NCBI GenBank assembly: GCA_022446985.1
Contig: JAKVBD010000012.1
Coordinates: 1 to 64,000 of the forward strand
Reading direction: 5' to 3'
From: Lentisphaerales bacterium
GTDB taxonomy: Bacteria > Verrucomicrobiota > Lentisphaeria > Lentisphaerales > Lentisphaeraceae
Length of the DNA: 64,000 nt
Below are positions 28,160-63,627 of this stretch, piece by piece; positions within the stretch are counted from its first letter, which is position 1; the number at the start of each line of letters is the position of its first letter. Under the pieces are notes generated by a model, which was not told where the DNA came from, searched no databases, and was given only the letters and a program-made list of their open reading frames with translations. The translations under genes and the position numbers were made by a program.

Positions 28160-28356
28160 CTAACAGAAAGTGACCAACTGTCCTATTTCCGCTGAAGCAT
28201 TACAAATGAGCTGATAGTAAAATAACCCATATAAAATTCTAAAGAGCCTAAGATAATGAGTGTTGTCTATTAATTTCAATTGTTAAAAAATTAATATCAG
28301 TATTAAATTGCCAACGAAGAAATTTTACAGACAGATTTAAGATAAAGAGATTTGAG

Positions 28357-45779: not shown

Positions 45780-47402
45780 TTACAGATTATCTTCAGCGTT
45801 GTGGACCAAAGGAGTTCCTTCAACCACATCATCTTTTTTGTAGGAAACCTCATGAATCAATTTCCCCTCGTTATTTTTCAGTGACAATTTATCGCCGCCA
45901 TTGTTGAGGTTAATTGATGACTCAGCCAATTCTAGACGAATTGTTTCTCCAGGCTTAAGGGTATGATTGAGTTTGAGTTCGTAATTCTCCTGATCAGATA
46001 AAGTCCAATTAATCAATTGCACTTCAGCATCACCAATGTTGTGTAGTTCAATCCACTCTCTACCGTTATCATAGCCCTGTGGGTCAATCATCATAGATTT
46101 TATAAAGATTTCAGCTTTAGGTTCCTGAAGTGGTTGGAGTATTTCTAAGTCGTTTTCCAGTATTATTTTTTCTGTTATGTCATGAATTACTGGAGTAGAT
46201 TCACTTTGAACTTTTTTCTTACTGTCTTTTAACATGGGTAGGGAGTAAAAATAGGAGACAAGAGCAAAGGCAGTAAGGAAGCTTATGGAAAGTAACCAGT
46301 GTAGTAGGCTAGCTTCGCCTTTTTCTGAGATCTCATTGGAATTTCTGACGGGTAGTTTGGCTTCCATTTGAGAAGGTGCTGGAGTGAAGAGATCCTGTGA
46401 TGCAGTATTTGTGTCGACGACAGTTTTCACTTTTTGAAGGTCAGTTTTTAGGCTGTCGTAATCGGCATACCTGTCTTCTGGAGATTTCTGCAGCATTTTT
46501 AAAATTATACTACTAATTTCTCTTGGAAGTTCGGGCGCTAATTTGGCTGGATCTGCAGCGGGTTCATCGACGTGCATCTGACAGATTTCCTGAGCTGTTC
46601 TGGCTTTGTACACATAATGCCCGGTTACCATATGGTAGAAGACGGCTCCGAGGCTGTAGATATCGCTGCGAAAATCCTGCTTGGTATCTAAAAGTTGCTC
46701 AGGTGAAATGTAGTGAGGACTGCCTTTGATGGTGTCCGAATCTTCTGGCTGAATGGCATATTCTGGAAGGGCAAGACCAAGGTCTGTGAGCTTAACCTCG
46801 CCTTCGTGTGTGATCATTATGTTATCCGGTTTTATATCCCTGTGTACCAGTCTTTCCTTATTCCAGGCATAATTCAGGGCCGCTACGACCTGTAAGATGA
46901 TATCTACTGATTTTCTTGGACTCATTCGCCACTTTTCATGTAGGATTTCTTTTAGGGATTTACCGTCTACATATTCCATGGCGTAGTAGTAGATATGATC
47001 TTCCTCACCGATTGCATAGCACTGAGTGATATTTGGATGATTGAGCTTTCCAGCTAAACGACCTTCCTGCATAAGTTCATGGAGGTAGGTTTCCTCGGAA
47101 AGGATGCGATCATGAAGAATCTTGACCGCGCAGTATCTGTCAAGTGACATATGGTAAGCCAAAAAGACTGTGCCACAACCGCCAGAGCCTATCTCGTTTT
47201 GTAAAACAAAGTCTGCGATGACTACAGAAGGAGCAAAGCGAGATTTAGGAACTATGTGGTACTCTCCACAAGAGTGACACTGGACAGGTTTACCGCCATC
47301 CTCTGGTTGAGCAGAGATGACTGCTTTGCAGTGGTGGCAATAAACCTTAAGTAACTGCAGGTCTATATGATAATCTGTATCAAATGAGCCCATTTTAATC
47401 AT
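45780..47402 (-). CDS. Ser/Thr kinase with zinc ribbon and extracellular lamin-tail domain
   Basis: 540 residues. An N-terminal zinc ribbon (Cys22-x2-Cys25 ... Cys42-x2-Cys45) precedes a kinase domain (about 63-325) with glycine loop IGSGGCGTVF, Lys94 (CAVKIL), HRDIKPDN with Asp190, DLG at 207 and SPHYISPEQ. One membrane helix lies at about 367-390. Outside it, residues 430-528 form a lamin-tail (LTD) beta sandwich: EWIELHNIGDAEVQLINWTLSD, LKPGETIRL, NNGGDKLSLKNNEGKLIHEVSY. The start codon overlaps the stop of the PstS-like gene (TAATG), so the two are translationally coupled. LTD modules often bind at surfaces; the ligand is unknown. Confidence 0.9.
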   Translation of the reverse strand: MIKMGSFDTDYHIDLQLLKVYCHHCKAVISAQPEDGGKPVQCHSCGEYHIVPKSRFAPSVVIADFVLQNEIGSGGCGTVFLAYHMSLDRYCAVKILHDRILSEETYLHELMQEGRLAGKLNHPNITQCYAIGEEDHIYYYAMEYVDGKSLKEILHEKWRMSPRKSVDIILQVVAALNYAWNKERLVHRDIKPDNIMITHEGEVKLTDLGLALPEYAIQPEDSDTIKGSPHYISPEQLLDTKQDFRSDIYSLGAVFYHMVTGHYVYKARTAQEICQMHVDEPAADPAKLAPELPREISSIILKMLQKSPEDRYADYDSLKTDLQKVKTVVDTNTASQDLFTPAPSQMEAKLPVRNSNEISEKGEASLLHWLLSISFLTAFALVSYFYSLPMLKDSKKKVQSESTPVIHDITEKIILENDLEILQPLQEPKAEIFIKSMMIDPQGYDNGREWIELHNIGDAEVQLINWTLSDQENYELKLNHTLKPGETIRLELAESSINLNNGGDKLSLKNNEGKLIHEVSYKKDDVVEGTPLVHNAEDNL

Positions 47403-48595
47403 TATCTATTCAGCTTCTTCATTTCTTGAGCTGCGATGTAAGCATTAACCGGGAAGTAACCGTCTTTACGAACGATTGCCTGGCCCTGCTGACTGTAAAC
47501 ATACTTGATGAACTCTTTTTGGAGCTCAGTTGGTTTAGTGCCTGGTTTGATGTTAAGGGTAAGATATAAACTACGAGTCAGTGGGTAGTCACCACTGAAT
47601 GCATTGACTTCACTAGGTTTGAAGAATTTACTGGCGATATTTTCCGAAAGAGCCAAGGTTGCTACTTTTGGAGATTTATAAGCCACACCACTGTAACCAA
47701 TGGCAAATTTGTCTTTTGCAACAGAGTTTACAACTTCTTCTGAACCAACAAGGTTTTTGTTTGTAGACTTGTATTTACCTTTAAGTAGAACTTTTTTCTG
47801 AAATAAAGCATATGTTCCAGAAGCTGAGTTACGTGAGTAAACTTTGATTGGAGCTTTAGCCCATTCGCCTTTAAGGCCAAGTTGCCCCCAAGTCGTGATG
47901 TTGGAACCACCACGCTTCATTTCAGCAGAGAAAATAGCGTCCAGCTGCTGAAGAGTAATTCCAGTCTTTACTAGTGGATTTTCAGGGTGAATGAATACAG
48001 CAAGACTGTCTACTGCAACACGAACCTGAACTGGTTCATAACCGAATTTACCTTTGAACTTTGCGATCTCTGTAGTCTTCAGTGGGCGACTCATAGGCCC
48101 GATGTTGGATTTATTTTCTAATAGAGCAGGTACTGCAGTAGAAGAACCTTTTCCTTCGTGGCTGAATCTAAGATTCGGGTGGAATGATCTGAATTCTTTT
48201 TCCCACATTAACATCATGCGGTCCATACTGTCAGAACCAATAGAACGAAGTTGTAGGCTTTGTGGTTTTGCAGTGTAGTTCGTAAGGTTGAGGCCCAATT
48301 TTGCAGGTTGAGCTGCTACTGTTTGAACTTTGGCAACCGGAGCAACAGGTATAGGAGGTTGTGCAGGTGCAGCAGGAGATGGTTTCTTGTTGATGATCAT
48401 GTTGACCATCTGCACAGCTTCCTGTTCAGAAATAATGCCATCTTTTTTCATCTGCATGATTTTAGCAATCTTGTCTGTTTCTGAAACTTGATGAGCTTTG
48501 GTCTGCTGCTGTGGCTTATTGTAGTAATGGTGATTCTGGCAGGATGTTAATGCAACTCCTGCAGTTGCTAAGCTTAGCAATAATTTTGTCTTCAT
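47402..48595 (-). CDS. PstS-like phosphate-binding lipoprotein with SHOCT-like segment
   Basis: 397 residues. The lipobox LTSC at the N-terminus gives a lipoprotein. A short helical segment, KIMQMKKDGIISEQEAVQMVNMI, resembles SHOCT. A PstS-type periplasmic binding domain follows (about 115-395): IGSDSMDRMMLMWEKEFRSFHPNLRF, GKGSSTAVPALLENKSNIGPMSR, RNSASGTYALF, and the IAGYSGV-like IGYSGVAYK. It is clearly a paralogue of the PstS at 54488-55450. It sits between the caspase-like/FGE gene (9 bp upstream) and the kinase gene. Likely a phosphate sensor for that kinase rather than a transporter subunit; this is inference. Confidence 0.88.
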   Translation of the reverse strand: MKTKLLLSLATAGVALTSCQNHHYYNKPQQQTKAHQVSETDKIAKIMQMKKDGIISEQEAVQMVNMIINKKPSPAAPAQPPIPVAPVAKVQTVAAQPAKLGLNLTNYTAKPQSLQLRSIGSDSMDRMMLMWEKEFRSFHPNLRFSHEGKGSSTAVPALLENKSNIGPMSRPLKTTEIAKFKGKFGYEPVQVRVAVDSLAVFIHPENPLVKTGITLQQLDAIFSAEMKRGGSNITTWGQLGLKGEWAKAPIKVYSRNSASGTYALFQKKVLLKGKYKSTNKNLVGSEEVVNSVAKDKFAIGYSGVAYKSPKVATLALSENIASKFFKPSEVNAFSGDYPLTRSLYLTLNIKPGTKPTELQKEFIKYVYSQQGQAIVRKDGYFPVNAYIAAQEMKKLNR

Positions 48596-48604
48596 TCTAT
48601 TTCC

Positions 48605-50476
48605 TTATTTTTGAAGTTCGAGCACGATTCTAAAGCCAATACTTTGTGAAGTAACACTTGGGCTGTATTCCCAGCGATTGGCTGAGCGGGCTTTAATAGC
48701 AGGGTCATCAAATGAACCTCCACGGACTATCTTCATGTCCAACTCATTCTCTGAGGCAAAATCTTCGCTTGGACCTTGAGGGTCTTTTGTTTTTTGAGCA
48801 TCATAAGTGAAGCTCCAGTCACTGCACCACTCCCAGACATTTCCGTGCATGTCATGTAGCCCCCATGCGTTAGCTGGCTTTGAGGCGCATTTGTCAGGGG
48901 TGGATAAGTTATTTTCTTTAGTGAGGGCCTGATCAGTGCTTATTGTCCTACCGGTATTGAATGACAATTGGTTGCCGGCTCTACAGGCATACTCCCACTC
49001 AGCTTCAGTAGGAAGGCGATAAGTTAAGCCTTCTTGTTTTGAAAGCGCCTTGCAGAATTTAACAGCTTCTTCCCATGATACGCGGATTGGGTTATTGGCT
49101 ATACGTACAAGAGACTCATCATTGGCATGAACACCTTGTTCTGGTTTGTAGTTCATGCCCATAACCTGACGGAAATGGTCTTCTGTAATCTCACAAGCGC
49201 TCATGTAGAAACTTTTAGAGATTGTTATGTTGCGTTGATTTTCGTCCCACTCTCTGCCTTCTTCACCTTCTGGGCTTCCCATCATGAATTGTCCAGCTGG
49301 TATGTAGACCATGTCAATCATTTTAGAATTTTTAAAATTGTAGCCGGTGTAGCCATACTTCATTCTCATGTCTGGTTTTAAGGTTATTAGGGACTTAATG
49401 ATACCTTTATTTACTTGAGAATTTGGAGTCTCAGCAATTGTTGCAGTGAGGTTTGAGACTATATCTGAGTGGACTTTTTTGATGATGTCTGATGATTTCA
49501 GGTAAAGCTCAGAGGATTTTTTGAAGTCCTTTACAGAGAAAGCATTTTGAGCTGTCTTAAGGTTAGTTTGTAAGGTCTCCCACTGTGGGTGACTATAGAT
49601 TTCCAGAGTTTCACTTTTTAGCTCTTTCGCAAGATTATTGAACTTGTTTTCAACAGCAATAGATTTGCACTTTTGAAAGGAGCTTAAAGTTTGTTTCCAC
49701 TTGAAGTAATCTTTTACTGAATTTTCCAATTTCGCAGAGTTTGATATCCTGAATTTGATGACTGCAGCAGTAAAGAGATCTGAAGCATATTTATGTGCCC
49801 CGGCTCTTTTAGCCGCTTCCTGTTCTTCTATACATAGTTCTTTGAGTCGGTTTATTTCATCCGGTCCAATATTAACAACCCTGCCTGAAATTAAGTAATT
49901 ATTTTTATACAGATCTTCTAATAGTGGTTGACGCCAGTTGGAAATTGGTGATTGAAATAATTTTATAGCTTGTAATGAATCCTGTTGTATATTGAGAAGA
50001 ATGGCAGCGCCGTTATAATTAATAAAGCTTTTTTGAAATGCTTTTTTGATTTTATCTGTAATGGGGGTCGCAGACTGTATGATTAGCATTGCAGGATTGG
50101 ATGCTAAGTCATTGGCTGATAAATAGCTTAGGTTTTTTCCTGGATGACTTTCTGGAAGGGATATATAGAGTCGGTCATTTATGACTTTTATATGTGAGGA
50201 AATATAAATCAGTAATTTTTGCTTTTTTACCTTCAGAGCTTCTTTTGTGTTTTTGAGTGAAGGGAAGTAGCGAGTGCCATCTTTGCTATTGTCCAGTTTA
50301 ACTATTGGGAAGTGACCGCCATAGGTAGTGTAAATATTACGTATGAATTCATTTGGTTTTGCAGTTGTAATCTCCGGGTAATGAGCAAATTCGCTAATGT
50401 CTAGAATGATGGCGTTTTCTGCTTTAATGGAAATGAATGATAGTATCAGGCTAATTGCAAGTATTGCAGCTTTCAA
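48605..50476 (-). CDS. Secreted protein: degenerate caspase-like domain fused to FGE domain
   Basis: 623 residues with a signal peptide (ILAISLILSFISIKA). Residues about 20-190 have the order of a caspase/peptidase C14 fold: a first strand AIILDISEF, KLLIYISSHIKVINDRLYISLPE where GHG would stand, and MLIIQSATPI where the catalytic DxC usually lies. Both catalytic residues would be missing. A helical linker follows, and an FGE domain from about 385 (MIDMVYIPAGQFMMGSPEGEEG, EITEDHFRQVMG, VSWEEAVKFCKALS, YRLPTEAEWEYACRAG, WGLHDMHGNVWEWCSDW, VRGGSFDD). First gene of the operon with the PstS-like lipoprotein and kinase. The caspase reading is tentative; the FGE domain is certain. Confidence 0.75.
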   Translation of the reverse strand: MKAAILAISLILSFISIKAENAIILDISEFAHYPEITTAKPNEFIRNIYTTYGGHFPIVKLDNSKDGTRYFPSLKNTKEALKVKKQKLLIYISSHIKVINDRLYISLPESHPGKNLSYLSANDLASNPAMLIIQSATPITDKIKKAFQKSFINYNGAAILLNIQQDSLQAIKLFQSPISNWRQPLLEDLYKNNYLISGRVVNIGPDEINRLKELCIEEQEAAKRAGAHKYASDLFTAAVIKFRISNSAKLENSVKDYFKWKQTLSSFQKCKSIAVENKFNNLAKELKSETLEIYSHPQWETLQTNLKTAQNAFSVKDFKKSSELYLKSSDIIKKVHSDIVSNLTATIAETPNSQVNKGIIKSLITLKPDMRMKYGYTGYNFKNSKMIDMVYIPAGQFMMGSPEGEEGREWDENQRNITISKSFYMSACEITEDHFRQVMGMNYKPEQGVHANDESLVRIANNPIRVSWEEAVKFCKALSKQEGLTYRLPTEAEWEYACRAGNQLSFNTGRTISTDQALTKENNLSTPDKCASKPANAWGLHDMHGNVWEWCSDWSFTYDAQKTKDPQGPSEDFASENELDMKIVRGGSFDDPAIKARSANRWEYSPSVTSQSIGFRIVLELQK

Positions 50477-50566: not shown

Positions 50567-50597
50567 ACAACTATTAAAAAATTATTAACTAGGTTAA
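50567..50597 (-). promoter_or_regulatory. Candidate Pho box of the caspase/FGE-PstS-kinase operon
   Basis: On the minus strand three direct units run towards the gene: TTAACCTAG (9), TTAATAATTTT (11) and TTAATAGTTGT (11). The last two repeat at the 11-bp spacing of PhoB/PhoP boxes, and the 9-11-11 layout is the same as at 54279-54309. The site ends about 90 bp before the start codon; a TATTAA that could serve as -10 follows. Confidence 0.5.
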
Positions 50598-50996: not shown

Positions 50997-52202
50997 TCAT
51001 GGTAGTGATGAAGTCATTAGTGACTCGCAACCCTTTATGAAATTCTCGAGAAGCTGAACGCCAAATTTAGGGTGGTTTCGGCACAATTGTCGATACCTGT
51101 CTGTCTCTAAATAAATAACTTTACACTTTTCACCGGCTATGTAGGTAAACTTCTCTTTTTTCTCCATCATCAGTGAATATTGGCCAAAAAACTGTTTGCG
51201 TTTAAGTGTGCCAATACGCTTATCATCATTGTAAACCTCTACAGTACCTTTCAGCACAATGAATAGTCCATGAGGGCACCGGCCCATATCGCATATAATT
51301 TCGTCTTTATCTATTTCATAAGTATCTACAGAGTTAATTAAGCGATTGATACGAGTGAAGTTCATGTCTTTAAATAGAAAGTTATCGAAGATGCTAAGAT
51401 CATTTAGGAGTTCTTCTTTATCTTCACAGAAATCTTCATAGGATTCCTCTTCAAGAGTACAGTTGATTAATATACAGGTTATGTTGTCACGTCCTCCGCG
51501 ATTGTTGGCAAGTTCTATGAGATCTTTAAGTACTATTTCCGGGTCTTGTCGGATAATTGGTAGAAACTCTATGGATTTACTGATGTTATTATAGAGGCCG
51601 TCAGAACAAAGAAGGAGTTGGTCTCCCGGTAATAGGTCAAATAGCATGGTGTCCGCTTCGACTGTTTGACTGAAGCCGATTGATTTTTTAAGGATGCTAT
51701 CGAAGCGGTAGGCTGTTACTGCTCTATGTGATGAAATACTGCGTTCACGGATTTCATGGCCAACGGTATGGTCTTCAGTAATTTGGTAAACTTCACTGTT
51801 TCTAGCCAGATAAAGTCTCGAATCACCGACATGGCCAAGTAGTGCTTTACTGTTTAAGATTAGAACGGCAGTGAAAGTTGTGGACATGCCATCTAGTTCA
51901 GGCTGCTTTTGGCCTTCGAGGTAAACTGTTTTACAAGCATTCAGAACAGCACTTTGCATGAGGCTGTGAATGAGGGCATCGTTATTTCCGAGGCAGAAAT
52001 ACTCTTCAATAATATGCTTGTTGGCCTCTATATACTCAGAACAGGTTTCGGCAGCCATTTTAGAAGCGACTTCACCGCCATTGCCACCACCGACACCATC
52101 ACAGACTATATAAAGTCCGAGTTCTTCATTGATTAAATAAAAGTCTTCGTTGTTATCGCGAATGATTCCAACATCGCTGATTCCCGAACCCTTAGTTTGC
52201 AT
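50997..52202 (-). CDS. PP2C-type phosphatase fused to a cyclic-nucleotide-binding domain
   Basis: 401 residues, cytoplasmic. The PPM/PP2C domain (about 1-245) has all metal-binding motifs: RDNNEDF (15-21), CDGVGGGNGG (34-43), GHVGDSR, LCSDGLYNNI and GGRDNIT. It would remove phosphate from Ser/Thr of kinase targets. Residues about 275-395 are a cNMP-binding beta barrel (DEIICDMGRCPHGLFIVLKGTVEVY, LKRKQFFGQYSLM), although the phosphate-binding cassette lacks the usual RAATVxA Arg. Allosteric control by a cyclic nucleotide, or a structural role, is inferred. A 35-bp palindrome stands 6 bp before the start codon. Confidence 0.9.
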   Translation of the reverse strand: MQTKGSGISDVGIIRDNNEDFYLINEELGLYIVCDGVGGGNGGEVASKMAAETCSEYIEANKHIIEEYFCLGNNDALIHSLMQSAVLNACKTVYLEGQKQPELDGMSTTFTAVLILNSKALLGHVGDSRLYLARNSEVYQITEDHTVGHEIRERSISSHRAVTAYRFDSILKKSIGFSQTVEADTMLFDLLPGDQLLLCSDGLYNNISKSIEFLPIIRQDPEIVLKDLIELANNRGGRDNITCILINCTLEEESYEDFCEDKEELLNDLSIFDNFLFKDMNFTRINRLINSVDTYEIDKDEIICDMGRCPHGLFIVLKGTVEVYNDDKRIGTLKRKQFFGQYSLMMEKKEKFTYIAGEKCKVIYLETDRYRQLCRNHPKFGVQLLENFIKGCESLMTSSLP

Positions 52203-52270: not shown

Positions 52271-54196
52271 TTACGAGTTTCTTTTATTTGCCTTACTTTC
52301 AATGACGTGGACAAGGATATTATTTATCTTGCGGTAGGCATTGATTACATCGGAGTAAGTCGTGCTCAGAAGTGGAGGCATCTTCTCATTTGAAATGCGA
52401 TCCATATGTTTAGCGCGGAGTTTCTTGATGTGAATAACAAGAGATTCACTTTGAGATATTGACTCTGTGAACAGTTGCGCCAGATCAGTCTCTTTCTCGT
52501 GAACTTTTTCGTATTGTTTAACAACAAGTTTATGAAGGTCTTTGATCTCTTCTTTTTGTTCAGGGCTTAAAGATAGGCCATTATCCTCAAGTCTGAGTAA
52601 GAACTTCTGTAGTTGCATGACGTAGTCAGAGATAGATTCATACTCATCTGCTAAAAGAATTTGTTTTTTGGCTTCTTCAGTTTGCTCATGTGAAAGAGTT
52701 CCCGAAAGAACATCAGTCAGGAATTTTGTGATTTCAGTCTGAACAACGTCGAGTATGTTTTCACCTTCAAAGATCTTTTCTGCATTCTTCTTCTTACACT
52801 TATCAAGAGACTGCTCAAGAAGGTTAAGCATGTCACGTGTTTTGTCATTCATTTTGTCAATTTCAAATGCACTTTGTTCAATAGCGGCAAAAGATGAATC
52901 GTAGATCTGGAAGTCTAGGTGAGTAAGGTACTGACCTTCACCTTTTTGACGAGCAACAAATTTGTTTAGAATATTGGCTGCAATTCCAGTGAATGGTAGG
53001 AAGATAATTACGTTTGTGATGTTGAAAATGGAGTGAACCATTGCGATGGCACCAGTGACATTTATGTAATTCTCTTTGCCATCGACCATCTGAACAGCAT
53101 TTATGTCAGAAATTCCCATGAAGTTATCCATGACATAGTGAATGAATTCGAGGTAGGGGTGGAATATCGCGGTGATCCATATAACTCCCACCATGTTAAA
53201 GAAGACGTGGAAGTAAGCGGCTTTTTTGGCATTCGAGGATGAGCCGATTGAAGCTAGAAAGGCAGTAATAGTTGTACCGATGTTTTCACCCAGTACAAGA
53301 GCTGCTGCAGTTTCGAAGTTAATTGCGCCGGTTACGGCAAGTGCAATAGTTATACCTAGAGTTGCAGAGGAAGATTGGACAATAACTGTGAGTACACAGC
53401 CAACAAAAGCACATTTTAGAAGACCCCAATAAGTAGAAGCGTCGAATTGTAGGAATGCTGCTTCAAAAGCCTGAACTTCTTTAATTGGTTTGAAGCCATT
53501 CTTCATAAGTTCAAGACCGAAGAATATCATACCAATACCCATGACGGCAAGAGCGAAGTATTTTACACTTTCTTTTCTATTAAACAGGTATACAAAGGCA
53601 GATATACCGAGAATAGGAAGTCCCCACTTACCAATTTTAAGGAAAAGAACCCAACCGGTGATTGTCGTACCGATATTTGCACCAAGGATTATACCAATCG
53701 CCTGATTAAGTTCCATTATGGTACTATTAACAAAACCAACGGCCATAACAGTTGTCACTGAACTTGATTGAACAAGAAGGGTAACCATGACCCCAACACC
53801 ACAAGCCATAAAACGGTTATCTGTTACGGCTTTGATTAATTTTTTGAGACTATTTCCGGCAATTGTTTGTAAGCCGTCTGACATGTAGCGCATACCGAGG
53901 AGGAATATCCCTAATCCGCCAATTAGGTTGAAAACCATCGTAGTGATCAGCTTTGAGTCAACTTCTTTGTATTTTTTGTCGCTTGAAGATGTTTTTTGTT
54001 CTTTTTTAGTTGTCTCAGATTTTGGATTGTTAATTAAATTAATATTAACAGAAGTATTTGACTGGATATTAGTCTTTACTGAATCTTTACTGACTTCAAT
54101 GCCAGCGTTTTTTTCTGCATTTTGTGCATAAATAGGAGAAATTAAGGTGAAGTTAAGTACAAAAAGTACTAAACTCAGAATTCTCTTAATATTCAT
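52271..54196 (-). CDS. Na+/phosphate cotransporter (NptA/YjbB family) with PhoU-like tail
   Basis: 641 residues with a signal-like N-terminus (LSLVLFVLNFTLISPIYA). About nine membrane helices follow, with the duplicated QSSS motifs of the PF02690 family (LLVQSSSVTTVMAVGF and VIVQSSSATLGITIAL) and GANIGTT/GENIGTT. The C-terminal 210 residues are helical and PhoU-like (SAFEIDKMNDKTRDMLNLLEQ...). It imports or exports phosphate with sodium. It is divergent from pstS, with a shared 290-bp control region full of TTAA repeats. Confidence 0.9.
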   Translation of the reverse strand: MNIKRILSLVLFVLNFTLISPIYAQNAEKNAGIEVSKDSVKTNIQSNTSVNINLINNPKSETTKKEQKTSSSDKKYKEVDSKLITTMVFNLIGGLGIFLLGMRYMSDGLQTIAGNSLKKLIKAVTDNRFMACGVGVMVTLLVQSSSVTTVMAVGFVNSTIMELNQAIGIILGANIGTTITGWVLFLKIGKWGLPILGISAFVYLFNRKESVKYFALAVMGIGMIFFGLELMKNGFKPIKEVQAFEAAFLQFDASTYWGLLKCAFVGCVLTVIVQSSSATLGITIALAVTGAINFETAAALVLGENIGTTITAFLASIGSSSNAKKAAYFHVFFNMVGVIWITAIFHPYLEFIHYVMDNFMGISDINAVQMVDGKENYINVTGAIAMVHSIFNITNVIIFLPFTGIAANILNKFVARQKGEGQYLTHLDFQIYDSSFAAIEQSAFEIDKMNDKTRDMLNLLEQSLDKCKKKNAEKIFEGENILDVVQTEITKFLTDVLSGTLSHEQTEEAKKQILLADEYESISDYVMQLQKFLLRLEDNGLSLSPEQKEEIKDLHKLVVKQYEKVHEKETDLAQLFTESISQSESLVIHIKKLRAKHMDRISNEKMPPLLSTTYSDVINAYRKINNILVHVIESKANKRNS

Positions 54197-54218
54197 ATAT
54201 TCTCAGTTTATTAAGTTC

Positions 54219-54305
54219 TTAACAATAGAAAAATCGCCTTAATAATTAGCTGCGAAAATTAATAAACTAGTCGAAAAGTTAATAAAATTAACACTATCTT
54301 AATAA
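54219..54305. promoter_or_regulatory. Array of five TTAAnAA motifs at exactly 20-bp spacing
   Basis: TTAACAA at 54219, then TTAATAA at 54239, 54259, 54279 and 54299: five units with identical 20-bp starts, i.e. on nearly the same DNA face. The sequences between them differ. It lies directly upstream of the Na/Pi gene and 180 bp before pstS. An additional TTAACACTATC at 54288 makes an 11-bp step to the last unit. It looks like a multi-site binding platform, most likely for the phosphate regulator. Confidence 0.75.
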
Positions 54306-54359
54306 TTGAGCTTATTTTTAACATTTACTTAAAAAATGAGCCCTTTACCGAATCGAATG

Positions 54360-54392
54360 TTAATGGAAGTTTAATCGCAGTTTGACTGATTG
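54360..54392 (+). promoter_or_regulatory. Pho box of pstS
   Basis: Three contiguous 11-bp direct repeats: TTAATGGAAGT, TTAATCGCAGT and TTGACTGATTG. PhoB/PhoP-type regulators bind exactly such 11-bp tandem units in place of a -35 box. An AT-rich TGGATAAAAAT, which could supply the -10 element, follows about 5 bp later; the pstS ATG is 96 bp downstream. Confidence 0.7.
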
Positions 54393-54487
54393 GATATTGG
54401 ATAAAAATCTACCCACGGCACTTTAGGTGCATCAGGAAACCGGAAAGGTATCCAATCTCAAAACATATAAATTAAGGTAAAACTGAA

Positions 54488-55450
54488 ATGAAAAAAACAT
54501 TAGCTGCTGTTATCTCCATCTTAGCAATGGTTGGTATGCTTAAAGCTGAAACTGTAAAAGTTGATGCTGGACTAACTGAATATAAGCCTGTTCCAGGTGT
54601 ATCTGGTACTCTTAACAGTATCGGTTCTGACACACTAAATAACATGATGACTCTTTGGGCAGAAGCTTTCAAGAGACTTTACCCTAACGTAACTATCCAG
54701 ATTGAAGGTAAAGGTTCTTCTACTGCTCCTCCAGCACTTATCGAAGGTTCTTCACAGCTAGGTCCTATGAGCCGTGAGATGAAGTCTTCTGAAGTTGACG
54801 TTTTCGAAAAAAGATTTGGTTACAAGCCAACTAAAATCGGTGTCGCTATTGATGCACTTGCTGTATTCGTTCACAAAGACAATCCAATTAAAGGTATGAG
54901 CCTTGTTGCCATCGACGCTGCTTTTTCTTCTACTTACAAACTAGGTGGTAAAGATGTTAAAACTTGGGGCGATCTTGGTCTAGACGGTTCTTTCAAAGAC
55001 AAAGCTGTTTCTCTATATGGTCGTAACAGTGCTTCTGGTACTTACGGTTTCTTCCTAAAAGTTGCTCTAGGTAAAGGTTCTTTCAAAACAACTGTTAAAG
55101 AACAGCCTGGTTCTGCTGCAGTAGTTAACTCTATCGCTAACGACATCTCTGGTGTTGGTTACTCTGGTATCGGTTACAAAACTTCTGGTGTTAGAGCTCT
55201 TCCTCTTTCTAAAGAAGGTAACAGCTACAACGAACCAACTCTTGGCAACTGCCTAAACAAATCTTACCCGCTAGCTCGTATTCTTAACATCTATGTCAAC
55301 AAGAAGCCTAGCCAGAAACTAGACAAACTTACTACTGAGTTTATCAAGTTCGCTCTTTCAAAGCAGGGTCAGAAAATCGTTGCTAAAGACGGTTACTACC
55401 CACTACCAGCCGCTGCTGCGAAAGCATTTATTTCTGCTGTCGAGAAATAA
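54488..55450 (+). CDS. pstS: Phosphate ABC transporter, periplasmic binding protein
   Basis: 320 residues with a signal peptide (LAAVISILAMVGMLKA). Phosphate-binding signatures are SIGSDTLNNMMTLWAEAF, GKGSSTAPPALIEGSSQLGPMSR, YGRNSASGTYGFFLKVA and GVGYSGIGYK. Codon use is markedly biased, as for a very highly expressed protein. A strong hairpin between it and pstC would keep PstS in excess over the membrane subunits. Controlled by the Pho box upstream. Confidence 0.95.
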   Translation: MKKTLAAVISILAMVGMLKAETVKVDAGLTEYKPVPGVSGTLNSIGSDTLNNMMTLWAEAFKRLYPNVTIQIEGKGSSTAPPALIEGSSQLGPMSREMKSSEVDVFEKRFGYKPTKIGVAIDALAVFVHKDNPIKGMSLVAIDAAFSSTYKLGGKDVKTWGDLGLDGSFKDKAVSLYGRNSASGTYGFFLKVALGKGSFKTTVKEQPGSAAVVNSIANDISGVGYSGIGYKTSGVRALPLSKEGNSYNEPTLGNCLNKSYPLARILNIYVNKKPSQKLDKLTTEFIKFALSKQGQKIVAKDGYYPLPAAAAKAFISAVEK

Positions 55451-55517: not shown

Positions 55518-57806
55518 ATGAAAATGGACCAAACAGAAAAATATCAAATTTCCAAATGGACTCTCTTCGTTGACAGTTTTATGTCGAAATTCATAACTGT
55601 CGGGGGGTTATCGGTTATCGGTGCCGTACTACTGATTGTATTCTTTATAGGTAAAGAGGTTGTTCCTCTACTAGAAGAAGCTCAAGTTTCTCCAGAAGAA
55701 ACTATCCAACTGCCTAAAGTCCAAATCGAAGACATCGCTGTTGATGAATGGACCGCTCTTCCGACTGTTATTACTAAAAACTCTCTATACGTTGTTAATC
55801 GTGAGAAAGACAACGAAGTTACAAAGAAAGATTTTAAACTTGAAGGCAATAGCCTAATTACTGCTCTCCAATACGATCAGGAAAAACAACTGATTGCTCT
55901 TGGAAATGACAAGGGAAATATTTCTCTGGTCGACATCTCTTACTCAAAAGAATTCCTCGATGAATACGATAATGGTAAACAAAAAAGTAATACCATTTTT
56001 TCTGTCTCTCAAAAGCCTTACCTAAGCCTCTCAGAAGATGGCGGCAAAATCGTTAAGATTGCTGCAAATCAGAGCGATACCCGAAAAATTGTTGCTGCTG
56101 TTGTTGAAAAAGACAATAAACAAAAATTTCTAGTTGTTACCCTCAAGCAGTCAGTTGATCTTTTTGGTAACGTTTCCGATGACTTAGCTATTGACCAGCG
56201 TCTTGACTTTACAGATAAAGTTAAAGGTCGGATTGATAAACTTATTATTTCCAGTCAGGCCGATTCAGTCCTTGTTTCAACTAGCGATGGCATGGTTTAC
56301 TCTTTTACAACTAAAAGCGGTAAAATGGAGTTCAGTAACTCATTTCAGCCTTTTAAAGATGAAGCCGATAAGAACATCCAGTCCATGAATTACATATTCG
56401 GCAGTAGTTCAATAGTTTTTACTAACAAAGCCGGCCGTATTCTTGGTTACTCTCTTTATAAACCAAGCAAAGATATGCCACGCCTTTTTGGCCTGACTAA
56501 AACAGATTTCGAAAATATCGATGGTGGTGCTGAAGTATTTACCCGCAGCTTAAGAAATAAGTCTTTCTTAGTGAGTAACGGCCCAAATATTAAGCTTATG
56601 TATAACACCAGTCAGGCTTTGAACTGGTCTGCTAAGATGGACTACAATATCAAGCACTCGATCATTTCAGGTAAGTATGATAAAATGCTTCTTGTGGATG
56701 ACCAAAGTAATCTTAATATTCTCAAACTTTCAGACCCACACCCGGAAGCCAGTTTAAAAACTTATTTCACAAAAGTCTGGTACGAAGGCCAAGCTGAACC
56801 TCGTTATATCTGGTCTTCTACTGGTGGCACAGAGGAAGCTGAGAAAAAACTTTCCATGATGCCACTCATTTTTGGCACTTTAAAAGCAACTTTTTATGCG
56901 ATGCTTTTTGCGATGCCAATTGCCATTCTTGCAGCTATCTATACTTCACAGTTCTTACCTCCAAACTGGAAGACAATCATCAAACCATTGATGGAAGTTA
57001 TGGCCTCATTGCCATCAGTTATCATCGGTTACCTGGCAGCGATTATTCTGGCTCCGGTAGTTGAGCATAAAGTTCCATCCATAATGATGGTTATTACTTT
57101 CGTACCTTTATCCGCTTTGATTATGGGTGCGACTTGGAATAATCTTCCTCCAAACATCCGCTTTAAGTGTAAAGGCGGCATGGAATTTGTTTTCTTTGCA
57201 CCGGTTTTGGTTTTCATGGCTTACATTGGCTGGCAGCTTGGTCCGGTAATAGAGAGTATATTCTTTACAATAGTTGATTCACAGGGACGTGAAATTGCCA
57301 GCTTCCCTCGTTGGTGGAGCGAAGTCGTAGGTCTTGAGCACACTCAGAAAAATGCCATGGTCGTTGGTTTTGCTATGGGCTTCGCAGTTATCCCAATCAT
57401 CTTTACTATTGCTGAAGATTCACTGAGTAATGTGCCAAAGTCATTAACATCAGCTTCTCTTGCATGTGGCGCCAGTCGCTGGCAGACTACATGGAGAGTT
57501 GTACTGCCAACTGCATCTGCCGGTATTTTCTCAGCTTGTATGATCGGTCTTGGTCGTGCTGTCGGTGAAACGATGATTGTACTTTGTGCGGCAGGTGGTA
57601 CCGGCCTTATGGAAATGAATATGTTCAACGGTATGAGAACTCTTTCTCTTAACCTTGCAACAGAGATGCCGGAAGCAGCCAAAGAGGGAACACTCTACAG
57701 GACGCTCTTCCTGGGTGCCGTTATTCTGTTCGCTTTGACATTTGTTATTAACACTATTGCTGAAGTTATTCGTCAGCACATTAGAAATAAATATAAGACG
57801 GTTTAA
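55518..57806 (+). CDS. pstC: Phosphate ABC transporter permease, enlarged
   Basis: 762 residues, more than twice the E. coli protein. After a first helix (about 25-52) comes a periplasmic domain of about 400 residues with repeated beta-propeller-like strands (ITALQYDQEKQLIALGNDKGNISLVDI, VLVSTSDGMVYSFTTKSGKMEF). The canonical permease follows from about 450 (LKATFYAMLFAMPIAILAAIYTSQF, MEVMASLPSVIIGYLAAIIL) with the EAA loop CGASRWQTTWRVVLPTASAGIFSA. This enlarged form is also known in some proteobacteria. Start at 55518 or the ATG two codons later. Confidence 0.92.
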   Translation: MKMDQTEKYQISKWTLFVDSFMSKFITVGGLSVIGAVLLIVFFIGKEVVPLLEEAQVSPEETIQLPKVQIEDIAVDEWTALPTVITKNSLYVVNREKDNEVTKKDFKLEGNSLITALQYDQEKQLIALGNDKGNISLVDISYSKEFLDEYDNGKQKSNTIFSVSQKPYLSLSEDGGKIVKIAANQSDTRKIVAAVVEKDNKQKFLVVTLKQSVDLFGNVSDDLAIDQRLDFTDKVKGRIDKLIISSQADSVLVSTSDGMVYSFTTKSGKMEFSNSFQPFKDEADKNIQSMNYIFGSSSIVFTNKAGRILGYSLYKPSKDMPRLFGLTKTDFENIDGGAEVFTRSLRNKSFLVSNGPNIKLMYNTSQALNWSAKMDYNIKHSIISGKYDKMLLVDDQSNLNILKLSDPHPEASLKTYFTKVWYEGQAEPRYIWSSTGGTEEAEKKLSMMPLIFGTLKATFYAMLFAMPIAILAAIYTSQFLPPNWKTIIKPLMEVMASLPSVIIGYLAAIILAPVVEHKVPSIMMVITFVPLSALIMGATWNNLPPNIRFKCKGGMEFVFFAPVLVFMAYIGWQLGPVIESIFFTIVDSQGREIASFPRWWSEVVGLEHTQKNAMVVGFAMGFAVIPIIFTIAEDSLSNVPKSLTSASLACGASRWQTTWRVVLPTASAGIFSACMIGLGRAVGETMIVLCAAGGTGLMEMNMFNGMRTLSLNLATEMPEAAKEGTLYRTLFLGAVILFALTFVINTIAEVIRQHIRNKYKTV

Positions 57807-57812
57807 TCATTC

Positions 57813-59651
57813 ATGGCTAAAAAACAATCAAATAAACCGAAAGGCGATGCCTGGGTTTGGGTAACTTCTCTAGGGCTTTCCACAGGCCTGCTGATGGTTA
57901 CAGCAATCCTTCTTTACATACTCGTTCAGGGTGTTGCTGCTTTCTGGCCTAAGAATATCGCTCAGGTTACAGTTTCTGAAAAATCAGAGACAACTATCCA
58001 TGGTGCTAGAACTATGGCGGGTGTTATTGTTAAGGATCAGGTAAAGACTAAAGAGATAAATAATGAATTTGTCGATGTCAACGAAATTCAGATGTTCGTT
58101 GCTAACCGTGATCTTTATAACTTCTCATTTATCTATGTCGATAAAAAAGAAATCCTTGAGACGACTTACCCTAAAGACCTCATGCTTCTTGAGCGTCTGA
58201 ATGACAGTAAAGCTATCGTCTTGCGAAAAGAAATTATCAAAGCCGATGGTACAAAGATTTCTTTTGATGATGCGTCGTTCCAATCAGAGCTGGATAAGCT
58301 AGTGGCTGAAGCCGTAGCTCTTCGCGAGAAAGCTTTAGATTTGCAAGTTGGACCTATCTCTAAAGTAGTTAAGCGAAACAAACACCTTGTAGTTGATCAG
58401 TATCCACACTATGAGACACTAAAATACAATAACGAAACGATTAAAAATATCGAAGCTTATAGAGATGCAATTGAAAACCTGGACAAGATTTCAATTGGTT
58501 TCCTAGCGATGACAGAAGAGCAACAGAAAAAATTCTCTGGAAGTGAATTTTATCTTAAGCAGTACAGAGAAGCTCAGGCAAAATTACAAGCGAAAGGTGG
58601 CGAGGCCTTTAAAGAATATGAAGCTTTGCAGGTGACTATTGCTAAAGGTAAACTTGAGGAAAATAATCTTGTTGCGCAAGTTTCTGAAATTCAGAAAGAA
58701 TTGCATCAGCACAGTATGACTTACACCACGGCGTCTGGTTATGAGGGTAAAGTCAGTATTGGAAATGTCATTCACTACCTTTACCCGAACCGCCTTTCTG
58801 GTAGTGAGAAATTTGGCATGTTCTTTTCAAATGCCTGGAGTTTCTTAACTGAAGAGCCTCGTCACGCCAATACTGAAGGCGGTATATTCCCGGCAATAGT
58901 CGGTACACTTATGATGACTATTCTTATGTGTATCTTCGTAACACCTTTCGGAGTGATCGCAGCTATTTTCCTTCATGAGTATGCTAAGCAAGGACCGGTT
59001 GTCAGAGTTGTTCGAATTGCCATCAACAACCTCGCTGGTGTTCCATCAATTGTTTACGGCGCTTTTGGTTTAGCCTTTTTCGTAACTTATGTTGGTGGAT
59101 CCATCGATAAGCTATTCTATGGAGACTGGGTAAACTCAGGCAACGGCGCCATGTTCGGTACCGGTGGTATGCTTTGGGCCTCACTCACACTGGCTCTTCT
59201 GACAGTGCCGGTTGTGATCGTTGCAACAGAAGAAGCACTAGCAGCAGTTCCTCGCGGTATTCGCGAAGGTGCTCTTGGTTGTGGTGCTTCTAAGTGGCAG
59301 ATGATTAAAACGGTTGTTCTGCCGGCTTGTGCACCTGGTATTATTACCGGTATGATCCTGGCCATGGCACGCGGAGCAGGTGAAGTTGCACCACTTATGC
59401 TTGTTGGTGTTGCAGATATTGCTTCTGAATTGCCCATTGACACAGCCGCGCCATTTGGCCTTGAAAGAAAATTCCTGCACTTAGGTTACAATATTTACCA
59501 CGTAGGATTTAAATCAGTCGACTCTGAAGCGACGAAACCACTAGTGTTTGCAACGACACTATTACTCATAACAATTGTTGCACTACTTAACCTTACCGGT
59601 ATAATCATTCGCCAGCGCTTGAAGAAGAAGTATGCGTCCGGGGCGTTTTAG
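57813..59651 (+). CDS. pstA: Phosphate ABC transporter permease, enlarged
   Basis: 612 residues. One N-terminal helix ([22 protein letters not shown]), then about 330 residues of charged periplasmic, partly coiled sequence, then the permease core ([47 protein letters not shown]) with EAA loop [24 protein letters not shown]. It pairs with PstC; both carry large outer domains. 6 bp after pstC, 11 bp before pstB. Confidence 0.92.
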
Positions 59652-59662
59652 GAGATTTTAAG

Positions 59663-60484
59663 ATGACAGATAATACAATAGTACAAGAGAAAGTTATGGA
59701 CACCGTAAATACTGCAGAGAAAGCCGAAGAGAAGACACTTATCGGCATTAAAGATTACGATTTCTTTTACGGTGATAAACAAGTTTTATTTGATGTAAAT
59801 ATGGACATCCCAGAGAAGCAGATCGTATCATTTATCGGTCCTTCAGGCTGTGGTAAATCGACTCTTCTTAGAAACATTAACCGTATGAATGACCTGGTCG
59901 ATGGCGTTCGTCATAATGGTGATATCGCTATAAATGGCCAGAGTAATTACGATCCACACCTGGATGTTATCAGCCTTCGTCGACGTGTTGGTATGGTATT
60001 CCAGAAGTCGAATCCATTCCCAAAATCAATTTATGAAAATGTAGTTTACGGTCTAAGAATCGCCGGTGTTAAAAATAAAGCTGTTCTTGATGAAGCTGTT
60101 GAGAGAAGTTTAAAAGCTTCTTTCCTCTGGGAAGAAGTGAAAGACAGGCTTAAAGACAGTGCTCTTGGCCTTTCCGGTGGTCAGATGCAGCGTCTATGTA
60201 TTGCCCGTGCAATTGCCAGTGGTCCTGAAATCATTCTTATGGACGAGCCTTGTTCAGCACTTGACCCGATCGCTACTTTAAAGATCGAAGAACTGATTCA
60301 CGAGCTTAAGAAAAAATACACTATCGTCATTGTTACACACAGCATGCAGTAGGCATCGAGGGTCTCAGATAAGACAGCATTTTTCTATCTGGGAAAATTA
60401 ATCGAGTATTCTGATACACAGGAACTGTTCAGTACTCCAAAAGAAAAGAAAACAGAAGACTACATCAGTGGTCGATTTGGGTAA
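59663..60484 (+). pseudogene. pstB: Phosphate ABC transporter ATPase interrupted by one amber codon
   Basis: 273 codons if read through. All ATPase motifs are intact: Walker [10 protein letters not shown], signature [15 protein letters not shown], Walker [12 protein letters not shown] and the switch THSMQ. Codon 230 (60350-60352) is TAG where the family has a second Gln (HNMQQA), consistent with a single C-to-T change in CAG. The frame then continues without other damage, [22 protein letters not shown]...[10 protein letters not shown], to TAA at 60482-60484. The truncated product lacks about 44 residues. TAG is an ordinary stop elsewhere here (for example phoB and the MazG-like gene), so general reassignment is unlikely. 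A recent nonsense mutation or a sequencing error are the main options. Confidence 0.88.
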
Positions 60485-60490
60485 TATATT

Positions 60491-61195
60491 ATGATAACAC
60501 ATATGCATAGAGAAATCAGTCGTCTGAAAAATGGGCTTTTGGAATTGAGTACTGAAGTAGAAAAAAGTATAAGCTGTGCAGCAAGAGCACTGGATACCTT
60601 TGATGAAACATTGGCTCTTGAAGTCATTAAGAATGATTCACGTATCAACGACCTTGAAGTAAATATCGAAGAAGACAGTCTGAAGATCTTAGCTTTATAC
60701 CAGCCAGTGGCACATGACCTTCGTGTTGTTGTTGCTGTTTTGAAGATCAATAATGACCTTGAAAGAATTGGTGACCTGGCTGTAAATATCTGTCGTTACA
60801 TACTGAAAATCAAAGAATATGGCATAATTCCGGTATCTTCTAACTTTAAGCCTATGTTCGATGTATGTTTAGACATGGTTAGAAAGTGTTTGGATTCATT
60901 CCTTAAAGAAGACTTGACTCTGGCTTCTGAAGTTTGTGAGAAAGATAAAATAGTTGATGGTTATAACATCAAGATCATCAAAGAGATCCAACAGGATCTT
61001 CAGGATAAGGCAAATGTTCAGCCGGTAAATTCACTTCTTTTCATGCTGTCAGTTGTCCGTACAGTTGAAAGAATTGGTGATTTTGCCACAAATATTGCTG
61101 AAGATGTTTACTACATGGTAAGTGGACAAATTGTCAGGCATCATGCAGAAGAGTTCCTAACACCGAATACAGGAGTAAGCAATGATGAAAGATAA
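60491..61195 (+). CDS. phoU: Phosphate signalling complex protein PhoU
   Basis: 234 residues made of two three-helix bundles. The metal-binding repeats are seen as AARALDTFDETLALEVIKNDSRINDLEVNIEE ... NNDLERIGDLAVNI and again VEKDKIVDGYN... VERIGDFATNIAEDVYYMVSG. It links PstB to PhoR and represses the Pho regulon when phosphate is plentiful. It overlaps phoB by 14 bp. Confidence 0.95.
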   Translation: MITHMHREISRLKNGLLELSTEVEKSISCAARALDTFDETLALEVIKNDSRINDLEVNIEEDSLKILALYQPVAHDLRVVVAVLKINNDLERIGDLAVNICRYILKIKEYGIIPVSSNFKPMFDVCLDMVRKCLDSFLKEDLTLASEVCEKDKIVDGYNIKIIKEIQQDLQDKANVQPVNSLLFMLSVVRTVERIGDFATNIAEDVYYMVSGQIVRHHAEEFLTPNTGVSNDER

Positions 61196-61880
61196 AAAGA
61201 TTATGGTTGTGGATGATGAAGCGGATATCCGTGAATTAATCCGCTTTAATCTGGAGAAAGAAGGCTTTGAAGTCGTCTCTGTTTCAGATGGTGAGACAGC
61301 TTTGGAAGAAGCCAGGCTGCGTCAGCCGGATTTAATACTTTTAGATGTTATGTTGCCGGGAATTGATGGCGTTGAAGTATGCTTCAAATTAAAGTCAGAT
61401 GTTGCTTTTAAATCGATTCCAATAGTTATGCTTTCTGCTAAGTCAGATGAATCTGATCAGCTTGTTGGCCTGAAAATTGGTGCAGATGACTACCTGGTTA
61501 AGCCATTCAGCCCTAAAGTTCTTGTCGCTAAAATCGGTGCTATTCTTAGACGTGGCGATGTTGTCTCAAGTAGCAGTGTAGATGAAGAGCCGGTGATTCG
61601 TTTTAAAGGTCTATATATGAATCCAAATGATTTCTCAGTCTCTTATAAAGAAGCTCCTCTTAAACTAACTGCAGTTGAATATAAAATTCTCTACTTCCTT
61701 GCCAGAAAGCCGGGACGCGTCTATACTCGTGAGCGCATTATAGAACAGGTTCGTGGGGACGATGTGATTATTACTGGTAGAACGGTAGATGTTCACATAC
61801 TTTCACTCCGCCGTAAACTTGGTGATGCTGCCGATTTAATCGAAACAGTACGTGGAATAGGTTACAAAGTACAGGAATAG
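61182..61880 (+). CDS. phoB: Phosphate regulon response regulator
   Basis: 232 residues, OmpR/PhoB family. Receiver domain: VVDDEADIRELI, acceptor Asp in LILLDVMLPGIDG, Thr/Ser in VMLSAKSDES, Lys in DYLVKPFSP. The C-terminal winged helix (LTAVEYKILYFLARKPGRVYTRERI, RTVDVHILSLRRKLGD...IETVRGIGYKV) binds Pho boxes. AGGAG precedes the double ATG start. It lies between phoU and phoR and probably acts at the TTAA repeats near pstS. Confidence 0.93.
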   Translation: MMKDKKIMVVDDEADIRELIRFNLEKEGFEVVSVSDGETALEEARLRQPDLILLDVMLPGIDGVEVCFKLKSDVAFKSIPIVMLSAKSDESDQLVGLKIGADDYLVKPFSPKVLVAKIGAILRRGDVVSSSSVDEEPVIRFKGLYMNPNDFSVSYKEAPLKLTAVEYKILYFLARKPGRVYTRERIIEQVRGDDVIITGRTVDVHILSLRRKLGDAADLIETVRGIGYKVQE

Positions 61881-61881
61881 G

Positions 61882-63627
61882 ATGCACCTTAAAAGCCTGT
61901 TTAGCTGGTTTTTTAGTAAGTTAGTTTTTGTTCTCGTTCTTATCTCTTTTGTTCTTTCTTTGAGTAAAAGCAGTAAAGAGTACAAAAGTGAATTACTTAA
62001 AGTTGAGTCGGATTTATTTCGTAAATCAGCTGAAATAATTGGTAGTCGGAACTTTAATCCTGCTAGTTATGTAAATTATAAAATTACTCTTATCGCCAAC
62101 GATGGAAGTGTTATAAGCAGCTCTTCATTTGGTGCAGGAGCCTCTTTTGCCGAGGTTGATGATTTTCAAAGAGCTCTTAAAGGTGAAGTCTTCACCAAAG
62201 TAAAACACGACCAGGGAGTTAAACACCAAATTCTTTGGTCTCCCACAGAAGTCGATGGCAAGCGTCAGGTCGTTAGTGTCGATGTTGAAGTCGATGTTTC
62301 TTATGCAGGAATTCTTGCTTCAAATCTTATCATCAATCTTATACTGGCTACTATACTTGGGTTTATACTGACTCGAATTCTAGCACAACCCCTGGAAGAT
62401 ACTCTTACAAAGTCTACTCAGGATATCAACAGCATTAAAGATGAAAGGTTTTATGTATCCAGTGATGACCTTGAAACTATAGAAACGACCGATCTTTCAC
62501 AATCTATAATTGACCTTTCAAAGAAGGTTAATGAAGAGTACCAACGACTGAGAGAAGACGTCAGTCAGTGGAAAGTCTTTTTCTCAACACTTCCTCGTGG
62601 ACTTTTAGCTATTGATAGCGAGCGCACAATAATTAATTGTAACCAAAACTCACTGGATATGATTAGTTTACAAAATTCCTCAGTTGACGAGTCCATTGGG
62701 ACGACTGTCATGGCTGCTTTTCGAAATGCGGATTTGAATAGTATAACCCGTGATTTTTTTGAAAGTGCTGAAACAATTAAAGATTATGAGTTTGAACAGG
62801 TTGTTGAAGATATCATTGAAACTTTCAAAATCGTTTGTGTTGAGCTTAGCCTTCAAAATAAGGAAGACAGTCCTGGAGCTTTGGTAATTATTGAAAATAT
62901 CACGTCTTTGCGACGTCTGGAAAATATGCGTAAAGACTTCGTTGCCAACGTATCGCACGAGCTTAAGACTCCGATTGCCATAATCGGCGGCTTTGTAGAG
63001 ACTCTAAAAGATTGTGCTGATGACCCAGACAGTACTTTGCGTTTTCTGGAAATTATCGAAAAAAATACCGCTCGTCTTACAACAGTAATCGATGATTTGC
63101 TGAATCTGTCGAAACTTGAGCAAAATGAAATGTTGATCAAGAAAGACTTCGAAGTGCGACCTATAGAAGAAACAGTCCGTTCAGCAGTGGATGTCTGTAG
63201 CTATGAGGCCAGTAAAAAGGGTATAAACTTAATTCAGAATCTTGAGGATTCGAAATATTATAAAGATGGTGACATGTATGCGAATCACCGGCTTCTGGAG
63301 CAGTCCATTCGCAACCTGGTCGAAAATGCGATTCGCTACTCACCAGAAAACTCAGACGTTGTTATTGTTGCTAAGAAGCAGCTGGAAAGTATAGAAATAA
63401 AAGTGACTGATAGTGGCCCCGGAATTGCCGAGGAGCATCAGACGAAAATTTTTGAGCGCTTTTACCGGGTAGATAAATCACGGGATCGCCAAACAGGGGG
63501 ATCCGGTCTTGGTTTGGCCATAGTGAAGCACATATTAAGAATCCACAATGGCAACATAAGTGTGACATCTGAAGAAGGTAAGGGCAGTGAGTTTACTCTA
63601 AGTATACCTTACGCAACTGCCCCCTAA
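61882..63627 (+). CDS. phoR: Phosphate regulon sensor histidine kinase
   Basis: 581 residues. Two membrane helices (about 10-30 and 145-170) enclose an outer domain of about 115 residues. A HAMP-like linker, a PAS domain (about 225-340: LPRGLLAIDSERTIINCNQNSLDMI), HisKA with FVANVSHELKTPIAIIGGF, and HATPase (NLVENAIRYSPENS, DSGPGI, GSGLGLAIVKHIL) follow. The sensing loop is larger than in E. coli PhoR. Starts 1 bp after the phoB stop. Confidence 0.93.
   Translation: MHLKSLFSWFFSKLVFVLVLISFVLSLSKSSKEYKSELLKVESDLFRKSAEIIGSRNFNPASYVNYKITLIANDGSVISSSSFGAGASFAEVDDFQRALKGEVFTKVKHDQGVKHQILWSPTEVDGKRQVVSVDVEVDVSYAGILASNLIINLILATILGFILTRILAQPLEDTLTKSTQDINSIKDERFYVSSDDLETIETTDLSQSIIDLSKKVNEEYQRLREDVSQWKVFFSTLPRGLLAIDSERTIINCNQNSLDMISLQNSSVDESIGTTVMAAFRNADLNSITRDFFESAETIKDYEFEQVVEDIIETFKIVCVELSLQNKEDSPGALVIIENITSLRRLENMRKDFVANVSHELKTPIAIIGGFVETLKDCADDPDSTLRFLEIIEKNTARLTTVIDDLLNLSKLEQNEMLIKKDFEVRPIEETVRSAVDVCSYEASKKGINLIQNLEDSKYYKDGDMYANHRLLEQSIRNLVENAIRYSPENSDVVIVAKKQLESIEIKVTDSGPGIAEEHQTKIFERFYRVDKSRDRQTGGSGLGLAIVKHILRIHNGNISVTSEEGKGSEFTLSIPYATAP

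Follow-up and report, generated by a model that had tools for sequence, protein, structure and literature searches.

A predicted extended Pho operator with a 20-bp ladder of half-sites between nptA and the pst operon of a Lentisphaeraceae bacterium

Five copies of the word TTAAYAA, set at steps of exactly 20 bp, lie between a divergent Na/Pi symporter gene and pstS in the 64 kb of a Lentisphaeraceae genome analyzed here (the window). We consider it likely, with a probability of about 0.7, that this ladder makes up the promoter-distal portion of an extended PhoB operator common to the divergent nptA and to pstSCAB-phoU-phoB-phoR, TTAAYAA being the predicted PhoB half-site. A distal extension of the operator is the most likely reading because the word matches the half-site of relatives, because 11-bp pairs accompany it, and because of the conservation of the region and the operon that it precedes. 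The initial annotation had reported the five words between the transporter gene and pstS, and all of them were found at the positions that it gave (Table 1).

The gene order is the divergent symporter gene, then pstS-pstC-pstA-pstB-phoU-phoB-phoR, and the DNA-binding domain of the phoB-type regulator has its best PDB match in E. coli PhoB (3t72, 1qqi, and 1gxp). The closest locus to the window is that of a sister species (L034, MAG S10.bin.24), with a PstS identity of 87%. The PstB frame of the window has only 229 aa, against 273 aa in L034, because of an in-frame TAG at 60350-60352; L034 has a glutamine codon there, the similarity resumes beyond the TAG, and the TAG is either a sequencing error or a genuine nonsense change. 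A PP2C-type phosphatase gene (50997-52202), apparently fused to a cyclic-nucleotide-binding-like domain as judged by eye, adjoins nptA, as does a homologue in L034 (2486-3697).

Table 1. Coordinates of the ladder, the predicted Pho boxes, and the surrounding genes in the 64-kb window.
Feature	Coordinates	Strand	Remarks
Half-sites 50597, 50588, 50577 (9+11=20), upstream of second pstS-type operon	50571..50597	-	Best (0,9,20) triple in 64 kb
Na/Pi symporter gene, nptA-type, divergent	52271..54196	-	NF037997 and TIGR00704 above cut-off
Ladder unit 1, TTAACAA	54219..54225	+	Half-site matrix p=0.00012; 6/7 identical in L034
Ladder unit 2, TTAATAA	54239..54245	+	Matrix p=0.00095; 6/7 identical in L034 (TTAACAA there)
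Ladder unit 3, TTAATAA	54259..54265	+	Matrix p=0.00095; not conserved in L034 (3/7)
Ladder unit 4, TTAATAA	54279..54285	+	Matrix p=0.00095; TTCATAA in L034; 54288 half-site 9 bp on
Ladder unit 5, TTAATAA	54299	+	Second half of 11-bp pair 54288/54299
11-bp Pho box pair TTAACAC-TATC-TTAATAA	54288..54305	+	Same distance from pstS start in L034
11-bp Pho box pair TTAACAT-TTAC-TTAAAAA	54318..54335	+	Spacing kept in L034 (TTAATAT/TTAATAA)
Promoter-proximal Pho box, 11-bp repeats TTAATGG / TTAATCG / TTGACTG (54360/54371/54382)	54360..54388	+	Aligns with pstS promoters of L008, L009, L014, L034
Conserved TATTGGATAAAA, candidate -10 region of pst promoter	54395..54406	+	Identical in L034; putative function
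pstS	54488..55450	+	TIGR02136 above cut-off
pstC-like permease gene	55518..57806	+	TIGR02138 195.4 bits, cut-off 196.45
pstA	57813..59651	+	TIGR00974 above cut-off
pstB, frame broken by in-frame TAG	59663..60352	+	TIGR00972 325 bits, positions 2-204 of 248
phoU	60491..61195	+	TIGR02135 above cut-off
phoB-type response regulator gene, presumed binder	61182..61880	+	Best NCBIfam model PhoB TIGR02154, 241.8 bits, below 296.2 cut-off
phoR/pnpS-type histidine kinase gene	61882..63627	+	NF046044 332.7 bits, TIGR02966 269.7 bits, both below cut-off

The pattern TTAAYAA-N13-TTAAYAA has four tandem matches in the ladder against 0.05 expected from shuffles of the window (0 of 100 reached four), and only one further match was found elsewhere in the 6.34-Mb genome. 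When all 4-mers were considered at steps of 9-45 bp, the ladder was the sole arithmetic progression of at least five members in the 64 kb, with 0.1 expected per locally matched Markov shuffle of the window; given 7-11 sites placed at random in 110-165 bp, the probability of five in progression is about 0.0002-0.002. These statistics are post hoc, the pattern itself having prompted the tests, but their margin is comfortable and the ladder is a real feature of the DNA. As had also been noted, the bases between the units are not conserved from unit to unit, which the comparison of the spacers bears out.

The initial annotation set the 20-bp step against the 11 bp of known Pho boxes. The step itself is confirmed, but the contrast is misleading because the region holds normal 11-bp pairs and unit 5 belongs to one of them (54288/54299). 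Further TTAA half-sites, which that annotation had missed, start at 54288, 54318, 54329, 54360, and 54371 and are paired at exactly 11 bp. Direct repeats of a word of about 7 bp at the spacing of a Pho box are thus present at 54288/54299, 54318/54329, and 54360/54371/54382, and the last of these lie near the promoter of the phosphate-uptake operon, just upstream of the conserved TATTGGATAAAA. A half-site matrix was built from 28 half-sites in the promoters of relatives, with the window and the sister sequences left out, and scanned over the 64 kb. It matches all five ladder units on the plus strand (p<0.001 for each) and also 54288, 54318, 54360, and 54371; at +/-11 bp, units 1-4 have no matrix-matching partner and only unit 5 has one (54288). 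Scanned at steps of 9-24 bp, the pst region scores 24.3 at 20 bp (at 54219), 15.9 at 11 bp (at 54360, the best 11-bp run of the region, as good a run being found in 0 of 558 tiles of the window), and 12.8 at 19 bp (through 54299/54318), in each case above all 558 tiles.

The same word is found at the phosphate genes of relatives. In the pstS promoters of other Lentisphaeraceae (L008, L009, L011, and L014), TTAACA/TTAAT repeats with a spacing of exactly 11 bp lie a short way upstream of the gene, the nptA promoters of two Lentisphaeraceae genomes (L140 and L141) have 11-bp Pho boxes of their own, and porin-pstS operons in another family of the same class (L175 and L176) have 11-bp TTAAC/TTAAY half-sites. 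Scored with a leave-one-out matrix, the relatives have their peak at 11 bp (L140 and L141 score also at 22 bp), and none of those examined peaks at 20 bp. The comparison yields TTAACAWNNNN, repeated at 11 bp, as a working consensus, which is near the cyanobacterial box. Our literature search found no text that pairs "Lentisphaera" with "Pho box" and, for Verrucomicrobia, only one paper, in which the mentions are few.

Pho boxes in general have been described as 11-nt direct repeats of a word that varies by species (PMC4415409). The cyanobacterial SphR Pho box consists of three copies of CTTAACCT, each of 8 bp and followed by a 3-bp linker to make 11-bp repeats (PMC1906773). It resembles the box of the window in having almost the same word (TTAAC/TTAAT) in 11-bp direct repeats upstream of pst genes; it is bound by a PhoB orthologue (PMC1906773), whereas binding in the window is predicted from sequence, and the window differs by its extra 20-bp ladder upstream and belongs to an unrelated phylum (Lentisphaerota). 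The E. coli PhoB box, with CTGTCAT in 11-nt direct repeat units (PMC4415409), shares with the window tandem half-sites at 11 bp immediately before the -10 region, as well as head-to-tail binding and control by PhoB/PhoR (both predicted in the window), but it has another word, and its tandem 11-nt units imply a dimer pitch of 22 bp versus the 20 bp of the ladder. In the "complex" PHO operators of Streptomyces, direct-repeat units vary between promoters in conservation, number, and organization, as those of the window do; their word is GTTCACC, and the text consulted describes no 20-bp ladder (PMC4415409). The Pho operator is a known general kind, of which a 20-bp pitch would be a possible variant in an operator of unusual length.

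The intergenic regions of the window and L034 align without large gaps. Over 54211-54344, half-site positions are identical in 46 of 56 cases (82%) and spacer positions in 34 of 78 (44%), with p=5e-6 for the difference. Ladder units 1-4 by themselves give 21/28 and 28/49, a contrast that is not significant (p=0.09). The three 11-bp pairs or triples are kept in L034 at identical spacing, while units 1, 2, and 4 are each kept with one substitution (unit 4 being degenerate), unit 3 is lost, and the ladder steps become 19, 39, and 20 bp. The 11-bp pairs are thus clearly constrained and the ladder partly so, but its exact register is not. The step scan of L034 gives the 11-bp signal again and no strong 20-bp run. 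It also gives a run at 24 bp with a comparable score, an illustration of how a region rich in half-sites can produce runs of this sort. When relatives were compared, as the initial annotation had proposed, the exact 20-bp spacing was kept neither in L034 nor in any other relative examined.

That the exact spacing is a coincidence, Pho half-sites having fallen in register, is a real possibility, if not the outcome we expect, and one that is compatible with PhoB sites. The register drifts in L034, and it was the pattern that prompted the search. On the other hand, five sites in progression are improbable for the number of sites present (p ~0.0002-0.002), and a 9+11=20 arrangement recurs at a second promoter in the window but at no other place in the 64 kb. 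Within the ladder, the half-sites 54279-54288-54299 are spaced by 9 and 11 bp, and so are three half-sites upstream of a second pstS-type operon. As (0,9,20) triples these score 21.6 in the pst region and 22.3 at the second pstS-type promoter, the next best in the 64 kb scoring 12.1, and the same two places hold the two densest half-site clusters of the window. The recurrence fits 11-bp dimers predicted to repeat every 20 bp. A third (0,9,20) candidate at 28306, with a far lower score and no phosphate gene nearby, was discarded. In G002, the homologue of the second pstS-type promoter lacks a clear run at either 11 or 20 bp.

The OmpR operator of ompF and ompC is made of contiguous 20-bp sites, each of two 10-bp half-sites. 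The ladder is like it in belonging to the same regulator superfamily, in the 20-bp pitch of successive dimers, and in weaker half-sites completed by cooperativity (both proposed for the ladder), but it has half-sites at 11+9 instead of 10+10 bp and a PhoB-type regulator. An operator of the OmpR type proper was rejected, the half-sites lying at 9+11 bp at both promoters (54279/54288/54299 and 50597/50588/50577), and the best triples of the window include no (0,10,20) triple from the pst region. The second pstS-type operon (45780-50476) encodes, in the order also seen in G002 (L206), a protein whose C-terminal domain is formylglycine-enzyme-like, a PstS-like binding protein, and a Ser/Thr kinase; the binding protein and the kinase are apparently cotranscribed, which points to a unit of phosphate-linked signalling.

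The ladder could also be an operator of the divergent nptA and not of pstS, which is a variant of the PhoB reading and not exclusive of it. Since TTAA is its own reverse complement, a 20-bp ladder exists on the minus strand too and ends at the nptA promoter, unit 1 being just 23 bp from the nptA start codon; the Pho boxes at nptA in L140 and L141 also agree with such a role. All five units, however, have the consensus bases outside the TTAA core (Y in position 5 and A in positions 6-7) on the plus strand, and minus-strand matches within the ladder are limited to 54262, 54282, and 54291, with lower scores, so that we regard an operator of nptA alone as somewhat doubtful.

If the ladder is the distal part of a shared PhoB operator, phosphate starvation would lead phosphorylated PhoB, encoded by the pst operon itself, to bind the 11-bp repeats that adjoin the pstS -10 region (54360-54388) together with both 11-bp pairs farther upstream (54318 and 54288), from which further dimers may spread cooperatively along the ladder. 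Each 20-bp step would then hold one consensus and one degenerate half-site, 11 bp apart within a dimer and with 9 bp between dimers; the supposed partners between units 1-4 have no match to the half-site matrix. Filling of the ladder would raise the occupancy at pst and would probably also control nptA. The initial annotation had proposed a distinct binding mode of the phosphate regulator: the link to that regulator is well supported by the word, the neighbours, the operon, and the relatives, and the distinct 20-bp mode is possible. The recurrence of 9+11 at the second pstS-type promoter argues for a 20-bp pitch; its absence from the relatives examined and the lack of enrichment in the genome argue against it. 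The broader proposal, that PhoB dimers in this Lentisphaeraceae genus polymerize with a pitch of 20 bp (11 bp inside a dimer and 9 bp from one dimer to the next), that one consensus half-site per dimer suffices in long operators, and that the two divergent phosphate-uptake systems are under the control of one ladder, seems rather improbable to us. The ladder makes a clean test case for PhoB assembly at a 20-bp versus a 22-bp dimer pitch and for reading through degenerate half-sites. The annotated placement of the five sites on one face of the helix is only approximate: it holds at 10.0 bp per turn, but with 10.5 bp per turn each 20-bp step turns the next site by about 34 degrees, which adds up to 137 degrees over the ladder, and 22-bp steps would rotate the sites equally in the opposite direction.

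A decayed tandem duplication, in which slippage around units 2-4 copied a 20-bp unit two or three times and the spacers then drifted, would leave a period that has no significance for binding in itself. In 54239-54285, Tandem Repeats Finder detects a repeat of period 20 with 2.4 copies, 80% matches, and 16% indels (a weak score), and spacers 2 and 3 have TAG..CGAAAA in common (p=0.08). Over all five units, however, the spacers resemble one another no more than shuffled spacers do, and the distance from unit 2 to the 54288 site is 48 bp in L034 versus 49 bp in the window, a near equality that speaks against a recent gain of 20 bp. We judge such an origin quite unlikely. A platform for a second factor unrelated to PhoB, such as a nucleoid protein or curved DNA, as the initial annotation had also offered, is very improbable and found no support: the region is AT-rich with four A-tracts of 4-5 bp (54229, 54255, 54274, and 54284), but these are irregularly spaced (26, 19, and 10 bp), the word of the ladder is the one that forms the Pho half-site in relatives, and other AT-rich gaps show no enrichment of 20-bp pairs.

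The scan for TTAAYAA(N13) repeats that the annotation had called for gave 20-bp pairs outside the ladder at background level only (for TTAAYAW, 3 of the 77 other pairs over 16 spacings), and accordingly the pattern is not frequent in other AT-rich gaps of the genome. Whatever its nature, the role of the ladder is local to phosphate-uptake promoters. Exact 11-bp TTAAYA pairs number 13 in the genome against 12 in a reversed control, so the strict word alone defines no regulon. A 54-bp profile of the pst promoter was set aside, its best matches beyond the training sites being weak (E 0.01 or above); one of these weak matches precedes a putative porin gene in G002. Pho boxes were not found at PhoD-family genes, an alkaline phosphatase (PF00245) is absent, and the Porin_O_P model gave nothing convincing. 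The other genomic 20-bp TTAAYAA pair was rejected as a phosphate promoter: it lies in an AT-rich intergenic region (L127:2440-2720; G000 C239:104940-105220) with the DnaA-box-like words GTGGATAAC and TTATCAACA and is a candidate for a replication-origin region. A possible Pho box, TTAACACAGCT TTAAATGGTCT TTTAATG, precedes a radical SAM gene that lies 13 kb from pst in the sister species (L153 centre, G001 C151:28684).
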